Of a DNA stretch of 64,000 nt, positions 15,291-25,968 are shown in pieces. A program made the position numbers and the translations under genes. The notes under the pieces were generated by a model. It ran no database searches. It was not told where the DNA came from and saw only the letters and a program-made list of their open reading frames with translations. The stretch covers positions 1 to 64,000 of the forward strand of contig CALMZO010000151.1 in the NCBI GenBank assembly GCA_937870825.1. Reading direction: 5' to 3'. The stretch comes from an uncultured Chloroflexota bacterium (GTDB lineage: Bacteria; Chloroflexota; Anaerolineae; UBA4142; SHND01). Each line of letters begins with the position of its first letter. Position 1 is the stretch's first letter.

Positions 15291-15908
15291 ATGTCCATTC
15301 CGGCATCCTCATCCCCCCCCCCTCGCGCGGCTGTCATTATTCCCGCACGCGGCGGCTCGAAACGCTTGCCGCGTAAAAATATCCAACTGCTGCTGGGTCG
15401 CCCGATGATTGATTATTCCATCGCGGCGGGCTTGGGCAGCCGTTTTGTTGGCGCGGGCAATGTGTACGTCTCCACCGACGACGCGGAAATTGCCGACATT
15501 GCGCGTGCGTCCGGCGCGCAAGTGATTGCGCGTCCGCCGGAACTAGCGCGCGATGATGTGTGGACCGAGCCGGTGATTCAACACGCCGTTCAGGTTTTAG
15601 AACAGGACGGCAGTCCAATTGACATTGTGATTTGGATGAACGCGTGCGCGCCGGAAGTGCAGGCGTCGGACATTGACCACGCGGTTGAGCGACTACTAAA
15701 AGAAAATTTGCGCGAAGTATTTGCTGTGGACGAACAACTACGTTCCACAAGCATTGTCCGCGCGGTGCGCCGCGAAGCATTGTTTCAGGGACGCTTGTCC
15801 GTGAAATGTGCGGTGATGATATTGCCGTATGTGGACATTCACTACCAAGAGGATTTGAAAAAAGCGGAAGCGCGACTTGTAAAGCGTGAAAAGGACTTGG
15901 GTCGCTAG
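15291..15908 (+). CDS. neuA-like: Acylneuraminate cytidylyltransferase-like (CMP-nonulosonate synthetase) family protein
   Basis: AVIIPARGGSKRLPRKNIQLLLGRPMIDYSIAAG...VYVSTDDAEIADIARASGAQVIARPPELARDD; contains a C10 tract in codons 8-11. Confidence 0.9.
   Translation: MSIPASSSPPPRAAVIIPARGGSKRLPRKNIQLLLGRPMIDYSIAAGLGSRFVGAGNVYVSTDDAEIADIARASGAQVIARPPELARDDVWTEPVIQHAVQVLEQDGSPIDIVIWMNACAPEVQASDIDHAVERLLKENLREVFAVDEQLRSTSIVRAVRREALFQGRLSVKCAVMILPYVDIHYQEDLKKAEARLVKREKDLGR
15313..15322 (+). repeat. C10 homopolymer tract within neuA-like ORF
   Basis: ATG TCC ATT CCG GCA TCC TCA TCC CCC CCC CCT CGC: 10 consecutive C. Confidence 0.97.
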
Positions 15909-18760: not shown

Positions 18761-19513
18761 ATGACCTGCATGTTTGAAATAATCGCGGAACTGCATCCGC
18801 AGCACAGCGGCGACAAGGGCATCCTGCGCGAAATGATTCGACAGGCGAAAATGAACGGCGCGCACGTCGCCAAGTTTCAACTCTATGACGCGCCCGCGCT
18901 TCTCGGCTCGGACGCGTGGAATTATTTACAATTGACACAGGACGATGTGGCACAAATCAAACAGTGGTGCGAAGAAGACGAACTCGAATTTATGGCATCG
19001 GTGTTTGATGTGACGCGTTTGCGATGGCTCGAAGAAATCGGCGTGCGGCGTCACAAAATCGCGAGCCGCACCGTCACGGGCGACGTCGCGCTGGTCGAAG
19101 CGATTTTGGCAACCGGCAAGGAGACGATTGTCTCACTCGGCACTTGGACGCGTCCCGAAAAACCGTTTGGTGAATCGGCGCAAATCCAATATCTGTACTG
19201 CAAATCCAAATATCCCGCGTTCCTGTCCGATATGGGCGATTTGCCAAACGATTTTCCGTCGAACGGACTTGCGGGCTACAGTGACCACACGCTCGGACTT
19301 GACGTGTGTTTGTTGACGATTGCGCGCGGCGCACGCATCATCGAAAAACATTTCACGCTCGACAAGACGCGCGGCAAGCAAACCGAAAAAGCGCATATTT
19401 GCAGCATGACGCCCGACGAACTGTTGCAGCTCTCGCAAATTGGCGGCGCGTTGTATCGCGCGCAGCGGACGATTCGAGCTACGAGCCACGCCTCGCAAGG
19501 AGAACGGGCATGA
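18761..19513 (+). CDS. neuB-like: NeuB family (N-acetylneuraminate/nonulosonate synthase-like) without SAF domain
   Basis: FEIIAELHPQHSGDKGILREMIRQAKMNGAHVAKFQLYDA...GYSDHTLGLDVCLLTIARGARIIEKHFTLDK...SMTPDELLQLSQ; ends at about 250 aa with no C-terminal SAF domain. Confidence 0.9.
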   Translation: MTCMFEIIAELHPQHSGDKGILREMIRQAKMNGAHVAKFQLYDAPALLGSDAWNYLQLTQDDVAQIKQWCEEDELEFMASVFDVTRLRWLEEIGVRRHKIASRTVTGDVALVEAILATGKETIVSLGTWTRPEKPFGESAQIQYLYCKSKYPAFLSDMGDLPNDFPSNGLAGYSDHTLGLDVCLLTIARGARIIEKHFTLDKTRGKQTEKAHICSMTPDELLQLSQIGGALYRAQRTIRATSHASQGERA

Positions 19514-20778
19514 GTGCCACACTGCGCGGGTGGTGGCGCTCATGGTACGGCAAGGAACAATTCGCGTTTCCCCTGCCCGACGGCTGGGAACTTGTTGAAG
19601 CGCGCATGCGCGGCGCGCCGACATTGAGCGATGAGGAAATCCGCGCGCGTCTGTTGCAGCCGATTGCTTCGCCGCCCTTGCGTGAACTCGCGCGCGGGCG
19701 GCGCGATGCCGTGATTGCGATTGACGACTTGAACCGTCCAACAGAAGCGTTTCGCATTTTGCCGTTCGTGCTGCAAGAATTGAATGCGGGTGGGATTGCA
19801 GACGAACAAATTCAAATCATTGTTTCGCTCGGCACGCATCGTCCGTTGACGCGAATTGATTTGGAGAAAAAAGTCGGCGCGGATATTTTGAACCGCGTGC
19901 GCGTGTACAATCACAATCCGTACTTGAATTTGGTGGATGTTGGCACGACGAGTTTCGGGACGCGCGTTTTGATTAACGGACAATTTGCCGCGTCCGATTT
20001 GAAAATAAGTTTGGGCATGTTTGCGCCGCACTCGTACGCGGGATTCAGCGGCGGTGGCAAAATTATTTTGCCGGGACTGTCGAGTTGGGAAACCGTGTTG
20101 GGCAACCACAAACCTGCGAGCAAAATTTTGTCGGGCCAAGTGGGCCAAGTCGAGGGCAATACGCGTCGGTCGGAAATTGACGAAGCAGCCAAGCTGGCGG
20201 GTCTCGAATTTTCCATCAACGTGGTTTCGAACGAAGCGGGCGAGACGGCGGGACTGTTTGGCGGTGACGTAACCGAAGCATTCCGCGTCGGCGCAAAATT
20301 CGCGGGCGAGGTGTATGCCACCACAATTCCAACGGACGCCGACGTTGGCATCTTTAATGCGTTCCCCAAAGATACCGAATTGCTGCAAGCGTTAAATTCG
20401 TTGTCCGCGTGGAATCCGGGCGCAGGGGAACGCGATGTGGTGCGCGCGGGCGGAACGATTGTGGTCATGACATACGCGGCGGAAGGGCACGGCTGGCTCG
20501 GTCTCATCAATCCCGGCGCGCCACTGCACCACCGCCGCGACAAAAATCCCGTCTACAAGAAAATGTTGGAAAATCGCGAACTCTATTTTCTCTCGCCAAA
20601 TTTGAGCGACGCGATGCTCCAAGACCACTATCCACCGCAAGTGCGCGTGTACCCGCATTGGAACGCGTTGTGCGACAAATTGCTCACGCGACATCCCCAC
20701 GGCGCGCGCGTCGCATTTTTCCCGTGCGGTCCGTTGCAAATCGGATACAATGATTTAAAGTTAGCGCAAAGGGAATAA
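19510..20778 (+). CDS. larA-like: LarA-family nickel-pincer racemase/epimerase homolog (DUF2088)
   Basis: IAIDDLNRPTEAFRI, IVSLGTHRPLTR, FAPHSYAGFSGGGKIILPGLSSWETVLGNH: LarA motifs; ATGA overlap with the NeuB-like gene. Confidence 0.88.
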   Translation: MSATLRGWWRSWYGKEQFAFPLPDGWELVEARMRGAPTLSDEEIRARLLQPIASPPLRELARGRRDAVIAIDDLNRPTEAFRILPFVLQELNAGGIADEQIQIIVSLGTHRPLTRIDLEKKVGADILNRVRVYNHNPYLNLVDVGTTSFGTRVLINGQFAASDLKISLGMFAPHSYAGFSGGGKIILPGLSSWETVLGNHKPASKILSGQVGQVEGNTRRSEIDEAAKLAGLEFSINVVSNEAGETAGLFGGDVTEAFRVGAKFAGEVYATTIPTDADVGIFNAFPKDTELLQALNSLSAWNPGAGERDVVRAGGTIVVMTYAAEGHGWLGLINPGAPLHHRRDKNPVYKKMLENRELYFLSPNLSDAMLQDHYPPQVRVYPHWNALCDKLLTRHPHGARVAFFPCGPLQIGYNDLKLAQRE

Positions 20779-20827: not shown

Positions 20828-21055
20828 ATGAACATTCTTCGCACCATCTGGAAATACTGGCGACGCGTCGGTCAATTTATCGGCGATTGGGTCGGACGCA
20901 TTGTCCTCACCATTTTTTATTTCACAATTTTTGTGCCGTTCGCGCTCATCGTCCGTTTTTTCCAAGACCCGCTCGCCGTGAAACATGCGCCGCAGGAATG
21001 GGTAACGCGCGCCACGCGTGATTTGACTTTGCAAGACGCAGGGAGACAAACGTAA
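20828..21055 (+). CDS. Small single-pass membrane protein upstream of carbamoyltransferase
   Basis: 75 aa; IGDWVGRIVLTIFYFTIFVPFALIVRFF hydrophobic span; stop overlaps next start by 1 nt. Confidence 0.7.
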   Translation: MNILRTIWKYWRRVGQFIGDWVGRIVLTIFYFTIFVPFALIVRFFQDPLAVKHAPQEWVTRATRDLTLQDAGRQT

Positions 21056-22854
21056 TGTATATTCTGGGAATTTCCTGTTACTATCACGACGCGGCCGCCG
21101 CGCTGCTGCAAGACGGCATGTTGGTCGCGGCGGCGGAAGAAGAACGCTTTTCACGCAAGAAACACGATTTTGGTTTTCCCAAACACGCGATTGACTTTTG
21201 TCTCAAGCAGGCGGGCATCACCGCGCAAGATTTGGATTACGTGGTCTTTTACGAAAAACCGTTGTTGAAGTTTGAACGCATTTTGCAGACCACACTGCAA
21301 ATGTTTCCGAAATCGTACGGTGTGTTTCGCGAAAGCATGGTGAGTTGGTTCACCGACAAACTGTGGATTCGGGGCGAGATTCTCACCAAGCTCGATATCC
21401 CCGATAACAAATTGTTGTTTGTCGAACATCACCTCAGCCACGCGGCAAGCGCGTTTTTTTGTTCGCCCTTTCAAGAGTCGGCAATTCTCACGATTGACGG
21501 CGTGGGCGAATGGACGACGACGACCGTAGGACGTGCAACGGCGGACTGGGACGGCACGGGAAAAAATTCGATTGATTTGTTTCACGAGTTGAAATTCCCG
21601 CACTCGCTCGGACTGTTGTATTCCGCATTCACCGCGTATCTCGGCTTTGAGGTCAACGAAGGCGAATACAAAGTGATGGGCATGGCGCCATATGGTTCGC
21701 CAACGCGTCTCGACGATGTGTACAAATTGATTCAGGTGAACAAGGACGGCAGTTTCCATCTCAACATGGAGTATCTGGCGTACCACTATTCACGCACTCA
21801 ATCGTACAATGAAAAATTTGTCGGTCTGTTTGGGGAACCGCGCAAACGCGAATCCGATTTTTATACGCTCACCACCCATCCGACAAAAAATCATCCGCAG
21901 TGGGACGATGCGGTTGCGAAAAAGAATCAAGAATACGCCGATATTGCCGCGAGCATTCAAACGGTCACCGAAGAAGTGATGTTGCGGATGGCGAATTATG
22001 CGTATGAACGCACGGGACTCAAACAACTTTCCATCGCGGGCGGCGTCGCGCTAAATTCTGTCGCAAACGGGCGCATCTTGCGGGAAACAAAATTTGAAGA
22101 TGTGTTTATTCAACCGGCAGCGGGCGATTCCGGCGGCGCACTGGGCGCGGCGCTGTATGTGTACCATGTCTTGTTGGGCAAGCCGCGTAAATTTGTGATG
22201 GAGCACGCGTATTGGGGACAAAGTTACGGCATAGACGAAACCATCGCGGCGATTCACGAAAAAGGGTACCAGTACGAACATGTGGAGGATACGGAAAAAC
22301 TTGCGACGCGGATGGTGGAGGATATTCTCGCGGGCAAAGTGATTAGTTTGTTTCAAGGCGGCTTTGAATGGGGACCGCGCGCGTTGGGCAACCGTTCCAT
22401 TCTCGCCGACCCGCGCAAGGCGGAAATGAAAGAAATCGTGAACGCGCGCATCAAGTTCCGCGAGCCGTTTCGTCCCTTTGCGCCCGTGATTCTTGAAGAG
22501 TGCGCGCCGGATTATTATGCGGACATGCGAAATCCCGAAAAGCATTATCCGCTGCGATACATGTTAATGGTGTATGCCACGCGCGACGGGCAAGGCGAAA
22601 AAATTCAAGCGGTCACGCATCAAGGCGGTACGGGACGCTTGCAAACCGTGCGGCGCGAATGGAATCCGCTGTATCACCGCGCGATTGAATTGTTCGGGCA
22701 AGCGACGGGTGTTCCCGTTTTGCTCAACACGAGTTTCAATTTGCGCGGGGAACCGATTGTCACAACGCCCGCGAACGCGCTCAACACCTTCACGAAAAGC
22801 GATATTGACACTCTCTACATGAATGGTCTGGTGGTACGAAAGGAGCCCAAATGA
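21055..22854 (+). CDS. Carbamoyltransferase (NodU/CmcH family)
   Basis: MYILGISCYYHDAAAALLQDGMLVAAAEEERFSRKKHDFGFPKHAIDFCL...GGVALNSVANGRILRET...FNLRGEPIVTTPANAL. Confidence 0.95.
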   Translation: MYILGISCYYHDAAAALLQDGMLVAAAEEERFSRKKHDFGFPKHAIDFCLKQAGITAQDLDYVVFYEKPLLKFERILQTTLQMFPKSYGVFRESMVSWFTDKLWIRGEILTKLDIPDNKLLFVEHHLSHAASAFFCSPFQESAILTIDGVGEWTTTTVGRATADWDGTGKNSIDLFHELKFPHSLGLLYSAFTAYLGFEVNEGEYKVMGMAPYGSPTRLDDVYKLIQVNKDGSFHLNMEYLAYHYSRTQSYNEKFVGLFGEPRKRESDFYTLTTHPTKNHPQWDDAVAKKNQEYADIAASIQTVTEEVMLRMANYAYERTGLKQLSIAGGVALNSVANGRILRETKFEDVFIQPAAGDSGGALGAALYVYHVLLGKPRKFVMEHAYWGQSYGIDETIAAIHEKGYQYEHVEDTEKLATRMVEDILAGKVISLFQGGFEWGPRALGNRSILADPRKAEMKEIVNARIKFREPFRPFAPVILEECAPDYYADMRNPEKHYPLRYMLMVYATRDGQGEKIQAVTHQGGTGRLQTVRREWNPLYHRAIELFGQATGVPVLLNTSFNLRGEPIVTTPANALNTFTKSDIDTLYMNGLVVRKEPK

Positions 22855-23033
22855 AAGCATTCTTGCGCAGTATGTCCGCCAATTTTGGCGTCGTGGGCGA
22901 ACTGCTTGGATTCCTGTGGGCGCGCAAAATGTGGTGGCTGATTCCAATGGTCCTCCTGCTCATGATGTTCGCGCTCTTTACGATTTTCACCACTGCATCG
23001 GGCATCGCGCCATTCATCTACACGTTGTTCTAA
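22851..23033 (+). CDS. DUF5989-like mini membrane protein
   Basis: 60 aa MKAFLRSMSANFGVVGELLGFLWARKMWWLIPMVLLLMMFALFTIFTTASGIAPFIYTLF; ATGA-coupled to carbamoyltransferase. Confidence 0.8.
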   Translation: MKAFLRSMSANFGVVGELLGFLWARKMWWLIPMVLLLMMFALFTIFTTASGIAPFIYTLF

Positions 23034-23038
23034 AAATT

Positions 23039-23112
23039 CAAGAGTCCCACAGAGCTTTTGCCGCGCAGCGAGTTTCCCACTGCACCCTCGCGCGAAAGCC
23101 CTGTGGGTCTTG
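23039..23112 (+). other. Long imperfect hairpin filling the intergenic gap upstream of the SGNH hydrolase
   Basis: CAAGA(GT)CCCACAG (23039-23052) pairs with CTGTGGGTCTTG (23101-23112); inner GCTTT...AAAGC and C/G-rich pairing; ends 4 nt before ATG 23117. Confidence 0.65.
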
Positions 23113-23116
23113 ACGT

Positions 23117-24208
23117 ATGAAACAGATTCGCCGCGGGCGCGGGCTGCTCGTCGGACTCGCGCTCACTTTATTTTCCATTTGCGGAACCTTGCTCATCATC
23201 GAAGCGGGATTTCGCATCTACCAACGTTTCGCGTTCGGTACGCCGCTGCGCGCGTCTTTGTCTCAAGAGTCGCTCGGAAAACTTTCGCCCTTCATCCTCG
23301 ATGCCGAATTAGGTTGGAAGTCTACACCGAATTACAAATGGAAGGGCATGTATCCGAATCTTGACGGAACGAAATATCCCGCGGAATTGCATTTTGACGC
23401 ACGCGGTTTTCGCGCGTTTGGCGATGTAAATTCCACGCATCCCAAAATTTTCGTTCTGGGCGATTCGGTAACGCAAGCAGTCCAAGTTGCGGACAACAAA
23501 ACGTATCATGCCGTCATGGCAAACGAATTGAACGCGGAGAATTTTGCGTACGGCGTCGCGGGCTATGGTTCACTGCAAGAGTACATGATTCTCGACCGCT
23601 TTTATGACGAAATCAAACCGGATTTGATTGTGTGGCAATTCTGCTCAAATGATTTGGTGAACAACGACCCCATCAACGAGACCAACAGCACGAAAAGCAA
23701 CAACGGTATGACGCGTCCTTATCTGGTCAATGGCCAAGTCCAGTACATTTTGCCAAAACGCATGGCGTTCATGCGTGAAGGTGCGCTCAAATATTCGCGG
23801 GCATTGTATTGGGTGTTGAGTCGAATTGACCAAGCTCAAGCGAATAGCGATGCGCCGGACGTACAAGCGCGCATGATTGCGAATGGGGCGAGTGACCCCG
23901 ATTTGCAACGCGTGACGCGCGTAACCAATGAAATTATGCAAAAAGTTCGCGCACGCATTGGAAACACGCCCGTGGTCACATTCACTTGTGCGCATCATGA
24001 ATTGTTTGACGAGACCTTTCGTGTGGTCTCGGAAGAGAATGGAATGGACTTTGTCGCTGAAGCAGCGATCGCCCTCGAACGCGCGGAACAACAAGGCACA
24101 ATGGTGCGCGTCATTGACGGCGGACACTATAACGAAGCAGGCAACCGGATTCTGGGAGAAACACTCGCCAAATTCATTCTTGAGAAAAATCTTTTGGTGA
24201 AGCCATGA
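23117..24208 (+). CDS. SGNH/GDSL hydrolase family protein
   Basis: Signal/TM N-terminus; IFVLGDSVTQAVQV (GDS block I), DGGHYNEAGNRILGE (block V). Confidence 0.85.
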   Translation: MKQIRRGRGLLVGLALTLFSICGTLLIIEAGFRIYQRFAFGTPLRASLSQESLGKLSPFILDAELGWKSTPNYKWKGMYPNLDGTKYPAELHFDARGFRAFGDVNSTHPKIFVLGDSVTQAVQVADNKTYHAVMANELNAENFAYGVAGYGSLQEYMILDRFYDEIKPDLIVWQFCSNDLVNNDPINETNSTKSNNGMTRPYLVNGQVQYILPKRMAFMREGALKYSRALYWVLSRIDQAQANSDAPDVQARMIANGASDPDLQRVTRVTNEIMQKVRARIGNTPVVTFTCAHHELFDETFRVVSEENGMDFVAEAAIALERAEQQGTMVRVIDGGHYNEAGNRILGETLAKFILEKNLLVKP

Positions 24209-25968
24209 CGCGAGCGAACGGCAATCATCGCACGCGCCGCTCAAACGCGCTGTCCAAACCCTTACGGCAAATCTGGCGCAAGCTGCGTCCTTCGCTTCCG
24301 CCGTCCCCAACCGACGCCCCCTTTCCGGAATCGGAACTCGGACCCCTCGTGCGCCAAGATTGGGACAAGTGGAACGCCGCGCGTACACGCGCGAAAAAAG
24401 GACCGCGCGTTTTGATTGCGACCGGCATCGGTGGTCATCCCCCGTCAACCGTGATGGAAGCATTTCTCGCGGCAGCGTTGACGCTGCGCGGCGCGAACGT
24501 GGAATTTTTCTTGTGTGACAAACAACTGCCCGCGTGTTTGATGTGCAATTTCATGAGTTTTGAAAGCCCCGAGCAACTGGCAATACAGGGACCTCAAGCA
24601 AAGATTTGCAACTGGTGTTACCCGCGCGGACGCGCGATGTATGCGCCTTTCGATTTGCCGATTCGTACATTTGGCGAATTTTTGACCGATGCAATGCGCG
24701 CACGCGCGCAAGACATTGCGGCACAGGTACCCTTGGCGGAAATTCAAAAGTACAAGTTCGAGGGTTTAGAAATCGGCGCGCACGCGTTCGCAAGCGCGGT
24801 GCGTTTTTTTGTCAAAAGTGATTTTTGGGCTGAACTCACTGCCGAACCGATTTTGCGTCGGTATTTGGAAGCCGCGCTGTTGTCCGCGTTCGCGACGCGC
24901 GCGCTGCTGCGCGCGACGAAATACGAGGTCGCCGTTTTTCATCACGGCATCTATGTCTCGCAAGGCATCTTTGGCGAAGTGGCGCGGCAGGAACAGGTAC
25001 GCGTGGTGAACTGGGGTCCCGCGTATCGCAAGCACAGTTTTCTGTTCAGTCACCATCGTTCGCACCATTTTACACTGCTCCAAGAACCGTCGAGCGTATG
25101 GGAAAATCTGAAATGGACGCCTGAAATGGATAAGGACTTGATGGAGTATGTTTCGAGTCGCTGGACGGGGCAGAACGATTGGTTGGGCGTCTCCCCGATT
25201 CATCAGCCCACGGATACCGCGCTGGGACAAGAAATCGGCATTGATTTTTCCAAGCCGACAATCGGGCTTTTGACCAATGTCTTGTGGGACGCGCAACTTT
25301 TTTATGAAGGCAACGCGTATCGTGATATGCGCGATTGGGTTTTTGATACGATTGAATTTTTTTCGAAACGTCCCGATTTGCAATTGTTGATACGCGTGCA
25401 TCCCGCCGAAGTGCGCGGCACGCTTGTTTCACGCGAACAAATCATTCCGGCAATTTACACACGCTTTCCGCAATTGCCAAAGAATATCGTTATTGTCCCG
25501 CCCGAAAGCAGTGTGGACACGTACCGCGCAATGATGCAGTGCGACAGTGTGATTATTTACGGCACGAAAACGGGCATGGAACTCGCGACGCTCGGCATTC
25601 CCATTCTCGTTGCGGGGGAAGCATGGGTGCGGGACAAAGGGATTACGCTTGACGCGCACACGCGCGACGAATATCTGGAATTGTTGGAACGCCTGCCGTT
25701 GCGCGAGCGCCTGGGCGAAAAAACCGTCGAACGCGCGCGGAAATATGCATATCATTTCTTTTTCCGCAAAATGATTCCCGTGTATCGCGTCCAGCCCGCG
25801 CCGGGGGAATGGAAATCGTACCGGTTCGACCTGGACCGCCTTGAGGATTTGCGCGCGGCGGATGAAATTGGGCTGGATGTGATTTGTGATGGCATTTTGA
25901 ATGGGCGCGAGTTTATCTATCCCGCCGAAAATTTGCGCGCACGCGCGCCTGTCGGGATTGGGATATAG
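24205..25968 (+). CDS. Capsule-polysaccharide/glycosyltransferase-like protein with Cys4 motif
   Basis: PRVLIATGIGGHPPSTVMEAFLAAALTLRGANVEFFLCDKQLPACLMCN...ICNWCYPRG; C-terminal GT-B-like VYRAMMQCDSVIIYGTKTGMELATLGIPILVAGEAW. Confidence 0.7.
   Translation: MTRANGNHRTRRSNALSKPLRQIWRKLRPSLPPSPTDAPFPESELGPLVRQDWDKWNAARTRAKKGPRVLIATGIGGHPPSTVMEAFLAAALTLRGANVEFFLCDKQLPACLMCNFMSFESPEQLAIQGPQAKICNWCYPRGRAMYAPFDLPIRTFGEFLTDAMRARAQDIAAQVPLAEIQKYKFEGLEIGAHAFASAVRFFVKSDFWAELTAEPILRRYLEAALLSAFATRALLRATKYEVAVFHHGIYVSQGIFGEVARQEQVRVVNWGPAYRKHSFLFSHHRSHHFTLLQEPSSVWENLKWTPEMDKDLMEYVSSRWTGQNDWLGVSPIHQPTDTALGQEIGIDFSKPTIGLLTNVLWDAQLFYEGNAYRDMRDWVFDTIEFFSKRPDLQLLIRVHPAEVRGTLVSREQIIPAIYTRFPQLPKNIVIVPPESSVDTYRAMMQCDSVIIYGTKTGMELATLGIPILVAGEAWVRDKGITLDAHTRDEYLELLERLPLRERLGEKTVERARKYAYHFFFRKMIPVYRVQPAPGEWKSYRFDLDRLEDLRAADEIGLDVICDGILNGREFIYPAENLRARAPVGIGI

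Follow-up and report, generated by a model that had tools for sequence, protein, structure and literature searches.

LarA enzymes are nickel-pincer racemases of 2-hydroxy acids. In their active site, K298 is a ligand of the substrate carboxylate and Y294 contacts the 2-hydroxyl group (PMC11851776); a survey of the LarA family (PMC7583248) counts K298 among the catalytic residues and, for some groups that have no H174 or K298, suggests another hydride-mediated reaction. Carbohydrate substrates have been suggested for LarASp and LarABw (PMC12611868). Our literature search, which covered few subscription journals, found no paper tying LarA to nonulosonate or exopolysaccharide synthesis. Here we describe a LarA-like protein whose gene overlaps that of a NeuB-type protein, in a window (the whole stretch of DNA that was analysed, 64,000 nucleotides) rich in genes for surface glycans.

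Genomic setting of the neuB-larA pair

The source assembly comprises 7.23 Mb in 446 contigs and is 95% complete. Around the pair lie genes for an ABC-2 transporter with a Wzt-like ATPase, an O-antigen-ligase-like protein, many glycosyltransferases, a PseF-like cytidylyltransferase, a carbamoyltransferase, a GDSL protein and a PF05159 capsule-type protein. Judged by gene content, this is a large surface-glycan locus with a predicted CMP-ulosonate branch, and the scan of window genes recognised no enzyme that makes an obvious nonulosonate precursor. The features discussed below, in window coordinates, are:

15291..15908, + strand: PseF-like cytidylyltransferase, candidate CMP-ulosonate synthetase (PF02348, E 4.3e-23; PseF model 114 bits against a cut-off of 205.7)
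18761..19513, + strand: NeuB-type (nonulosonate synthase-like) gene, 250 aa, TIM-barrel domain only (PF03102, E 3.5e-37; pN/pS 0.14)
19497..19502, + strand: AAGGAG, putative ribosome-binding site of larA, within neuB and seven bases upstream of the ATG (read directly from the sequence)
19510..19513, + strand: ATGA start/stop overlap of neuB and larA (from the sequence; identical overlap at L035:876-879 in congener G004)
19510..20778, + strand: LarA-family (Lar_N) gene, 422 aa, with Asn296 at the K298 position (PF09861, E 4.3e-52; pN/pS 0.17)
20395..20397, + strand: codon of Asn296, at the site of the catalytic, carboxylate-binding K298 of LarA (from alignments)
24205..25968, + strand: PF05159 capsule-type protein (27.6 bits, cut-off 20; homolog directly 3' of larA in congener G004, L035:2156-3955)

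The open reading frames, coordinates and ATGA overlap given for the two genes in the initial annotation proved exact, and the coupling that it had read from them is repeated in G004, where neuB, larA and the PF05159 gene follow one another with overlapping starts and stops (ATGA between neuB and larA) and the LarA protein is 82% identical to that of the window. Comparison of the window with this congener gave pN/pS values of 0.17 for larA and 0.14 for neuB, and the low ratio for larA, despite near-saturated synonymous sites (pS 0.74), indicates a functional gene. A chance reading frame or pseudogene is ruled out by the 82% identical congener protein, the pN/pS of 0.17 and the pLDDT of 93.6 of the predicted model. 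Between larA and the PF05159 gene, the window carries a stretch that is absent at the congener's locus (20828-24208), consisting of a 75-aa membrane-type ORF (20828-21055; no match in Pfam or NCBIfam), a carbamoyltransferase gene and a GDSL gene; these genes form a cassette that was either acquired in the window lineage or lost from the congener.

The NeuB-type protein retains the metal-ligand histidines of NeuB (SDH, EKH), and its closest solved structure is 6ncs. No SAF domain (PF08666) was found in its 250 residues by the Pfam scan, and it falls under both the NeuB and the PseI equivalog cut-offs (118.8 bits against a cut-off of 399.65).

Fold and active site of the LarA-like protein

The predicted model (pLDDT 93.6, pTM 0.92) matches the solved LarA structures 9eid and 5huq over the full length at a TM of about 0.83 (Foldseek), and together with the Lar_N match (PF09861, E 4.3e-52) this confirms the earlier assignment to the LarA superfamily (Lar_N/DUF2088), with a confidently predicted LarA fold. 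In the residue numbering of L. plantarum LarA, and with active-site geometry judged from alignments, the protein retains D72, R75, H108, H174, K184 and H200, among which R75 (R76 in the window protein), K184 and H200 are NPN-binding residues. The equivalent of K298 is Asn296 (QALN in place of QAVK) and that of Y294 is Leu292, leaving the catalytic set of D72, H108, H174 and K298 incomplete, with the aspartate and both histidines present and the lysine replaced by asparagine. The initial annotation had held that the motifs for both cofactor binding and catalysis are kept; the motifs it listed are indeed there and the cofactor-binding residues are retained, but the catalytic part of the claim fails at K298 and Y294, and with K298 lost its straightforward reading as a 2-hydroxy-acid racemase is not supported. 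None of the LarAH equivalog cut-offs was passed (best 243.8 bits against 500), and these cut-offs, together with the loss of K298, rule out a canonical lactate or malate racemase.

The window protein belongs to a clade that has no characterised members. Across a sample of 61 clade sequences, in which the window's own gene is counted twice, D72, R75, H108, K184 and H200 are invariant (61/61), while K298 is absent in 54 and H174 in 24; no LarAH equivalog cut-off was passed by any of the eight clade proteins scanned. In one large subclade, to which Latescibacterota and Gemmatimonadota contribute many members, H174 is replaced by Arg and K298 by Leu or Met:

L100-L111, L113-L116 and L123, and class genomes G235, G150, G244 and G262: members of the Arg-at-H174 LarA subclade

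Those members whose neighbours were read are placed between xylose-isomerase-like and SDR genes, and a two-base racemase mechanism seems impossible in this subclade.

Recurrence of LarA beside NeuB

The LarA proteins of the window, of G004 and of HyVt-442, a distant Chloroflexi MAG whose LarA is 49% identical to the window protein, form one supported clade (100/98 and 99/97), and all three genes lie within NeuB/cytidylyltransferase clusters (3/3). The genes that come after LarA on the HyVt-442 contig encode a SAF + cytidylyltransferase protein, a GT2 + cytidylyltransferase protein and a complete NeuB that includes SAF. This NeuB is only 28% identical to that of the window, and LarA, not one particular NeuB, is therefore the constant. 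The two HyVt-442 fusions, of SAF with a cytidylyltransferase (L090:4447-6252) and of GT2 with a PseF-like cytidylyltransferase (L090:6249-7652), are unusual in themselves.

A genome-context survey for a conserved association with nonulosonate genes, as envisaged in the initial annotation, thus bears out the expectation for the subclade of the window, G004 and HyVt-442, but no other clade locus examined had NeuB nearby. A scan of GTDB species genomes yielded 39 LarA loci, and NeuB had no match at 37 of these or in 20 neighbourhoods from the class (L065-L084), some of them on short contigs, which rules out a broad LarA-NeuB association. No further close LarA was found among 150 relatives of HyVt-442. 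Close NeuB relatives are rare in the class, with matches at E 1e-20 in 4 of 397 genomes, two of them within the genus. We regard the LarA-NeuB association as genuine but narrow, seen in three genomes and two independent settings. That the protein is instead a LarA homolog of ordinary hydroxy-acid or sugar-acid catabolism, brought into a glycan island by chance, is quite unlikely: most of the wider clade does occur in catabolic contexts without NeuB, and unrelated genes accumulate in glycan loci, but the neuB overlap has been maintained in two species despite near-saturated synonymous sites, and the NeuB-linked proteins form one clade whose distant member adjoins different NeuB and cytidylyltransferase genes.

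Other genomic contexts of the clade

Further clade members neighbour altronate-dehydratase-type, IlvD/EDD, SDR or xylose-isomerase-like genes. Such neighbourhoods are consistent with sugar-acid or carbohydrate substrates; gene neighbourhood is not always informative for LarA, as the survey of the family warns (PMC7583248).

The glycan loci at L112 (7719-12393) and L098 (115-4410) are of a different type, in which a clade LarA is accompanied by an AMP-binding ligase and a UDP-GlcNAc 2-epimerase. In L112, larA directly adjoins a small ORF that was judged by eye to encode an acyl carrier protein; upstream are GT4 and GNAT genes. These contexts suggest a hydroxy-acid substituent in those loci, that is, a hydroxy-acyl group for sugar acylation. 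The corresponding explanation for the window, that the LarA-like protein racemises a small 2-hydroxy acid (glycerate, lactate or 2-hydroxybutyrate) which is then attached to a sugar as an acyl group, we consider unlikely. It draws on the ligase and epimerase genes that follow the clade member in L112, where the putative acyl-carrier gene abuts larA, and in L098, on the activity of known LarAHs towards glycerate and 2-hydroxybutyrate (PMC11770544), and on the retention of both catalytic histidines. However, the surroundings of larA in the window, the congener locus and the HyVt-442 contig yielded no recognised acyl carrier protein or acyl ligase, and K298 and Y294, which are used for small 2-hydroxy acids (PMC11851776), are absent.

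Cofactor genes

No larB, larC or larE gene was found within the window, as the initial annotation had observed, or in its own genome. Extended to seven genomes of the genus (the window's own and six congeners, all draft assemblies in which a divergent pathway would be missed), the search again found no LarB, LarC or LarE, while elsewhere in the class the same searches detect each of them; LarB and LarE matches below cut-off were taken as paralogs, because they were partial and fell far short of the curated thresholds. The search for LarC also found nothing in HyVt-442 and in two archaeal sister genomes, one of only 0.9 Mb. Most clade members come from genomes with LarC, and in the class sample LarC is present in 77 of the 93 genomes that have a LarA match at E 1e-45, compared to 114 of 304 others.

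Two congeners, G006 (L131:3558-4850) and G004 (L129:3860-5167), encode a LarA with the canonical lactate-racemase motifs PHFFAGFSGG and LYQTVKGM, that of G006 scoring 482 bits against the LarA cut-off of 460, and G029, which is listed as 100% complete, has a LarA above the cut-off and no LarC match. The window's own genome encodes a second LarA-like protein on contig C357 (L038:4180-5436), which has the E-V loop of gluconate epimerases and adjoins glycosyltransferase-like genes; its top model is a putative hexonate epimerase, at 193 bits under the cut-off of 500.

The initial annotation had reckoned that a genome without NPN biosynthesis genes would refute its reading, and at face value that is what the genus presents. 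The force of this absence is weakened by the congeners in which a canonical lactate racemase occurs without them, so that missing LarB, LarC and LarE are not by themselves proof of an NPN-free window protein. Loss of the catalytic K298 and the failure to find LarB, LarC and LarE in the seven genus genomes, or LarC in HyVt-442 and the two archaeal sister genomes, would agree with a protein that has abandoned nickel-pincer chemistry and serves NeuB as a binding partner or scaffold, or relies on another cofactor. We nevertheless consider this improbable, since K184, H200 and R75, which serve the cofactor only, are invariant across a clade drawn mostly from genomes with LarC, and since the congeners' canonical lactate racemases likewise occur without LarB, LarC and LarE.

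Proposed role and mechanism

Our preferred reading, for which we see about an even chance, is that of a LarA-family isomerase that helps to make an ulosonic acid activated with CMP, or a substituent on that acid, for a surface glycan. In its favour we count the full-length fold, the R75, K184 and H200 residues kept in 61/61 clade members, the ATGA coupling with strong purifying selection in two species, the single clade found in NeuB clusters, the lineage with UDP-GlcNAc 2-epimerase at L112 and L098, and the sugar-acid and carbohydrate neighbours; against it stand the loss of K298 and Y294, the failure to find LarB, LarC and LarE, a NeuB link confined to three genomes, and the lack of a recognised enzyme for an obvious precursor in the window genes scanned.

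From the family, fold, residues, operon and recurrence described above, we infer a pathway role, cofactor use, reaction and substrate along the following lines. The NeuB-like protein would couple PEP to an aldehyde sugar, the protein encoded at 15291 would activate the product in a CTP-dependent step, and the PF05159-type enzyme could transfer the activated ulosonate. Translated together with NeuB, the LarA-like protein would use hydride shuttling of the LarA type on the nickel-pincer nucleotide to invert (or oxidise or reduce) a carbon that bears a hydroxyl group, with H110 and H174 as putative acid/base residues and K184 and H200 as probable holders of the cofactor. Loss of K298 and Y294 implies that the substrate would be bound unlike lactate-type 2-hydroxy acids, and could be, for example, a larger sugar acid or polyhydroxyl compound. 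Because LarB, LarC and LarE were not found, the cofactor would come from an unrecognised source. More tentatively, and somewhat doubtfully, this K298-less lineage may carry out a new hydride-transfer reaction, other than 2-hydroxy-acid racemisation, on the ulosonic acid or its precursor sugar, with a cofactor that is obtained by an unknown route or is a different one.

Taken as a whole, the interpretation in the initial annotation is partly supported. If our reading is true, a K298-less clade that recurs in surface-glycan clusters extends pincer chemistry to sugar biosynthesis, and this organism offers a setting for asking how LarA proteins function, or obtain their cofactor, without recognisable LarB, LarC and LarE.

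Comparison with known systems

Like the NeuB/PseI nonulosonate synthases, the window's NeuB-type gene encodes the NeuB TIM-barrel domain with the SDH and EKH metal-ligand histidines, but it has no SAF domain and scores under the NeuB and PseI equivalog cut-offs. With lactate racemase LarA (5huq of L. plantarum; 9eia/9eid of I. pallida), the LarA-like protein shares the whole fold and the D72, R75, H108, H174, K184, H200 and Q295 positions. It differs from that enzyme in having Asn for K298, Leu for Y294 and S/Y for F175/F176, in its 27-29% identity and score of 207 bits against the LarA equivalog cut-off of 460, and in that LarB, LarC and LarE were not found in its own genome. Malate racemase Mar2 (LarAH6, 6d6z) is the top-scoring NCBIfam model, with a match across the first ~320 positions; unlike Mar2, the window protein reaches 244 bits against a cut-off of 500, has lost K298 and has a C-terminal part that is unaligned. 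As do the single-histidine LarASp and LarABw (9q2u, 9q3k, 9q3j; PMC12611868), it departs from the catalytic set and has carbohydrates among the substrates suggested, but these have Asn at H174 whereas the window protein keeps H174 and loses K298, and the match between them is weak. Like the function-unknown LarAH groups without H174 or K298 that the survey describes (PMC7583248), it has lost K298 and kept the NPN-binding residues.
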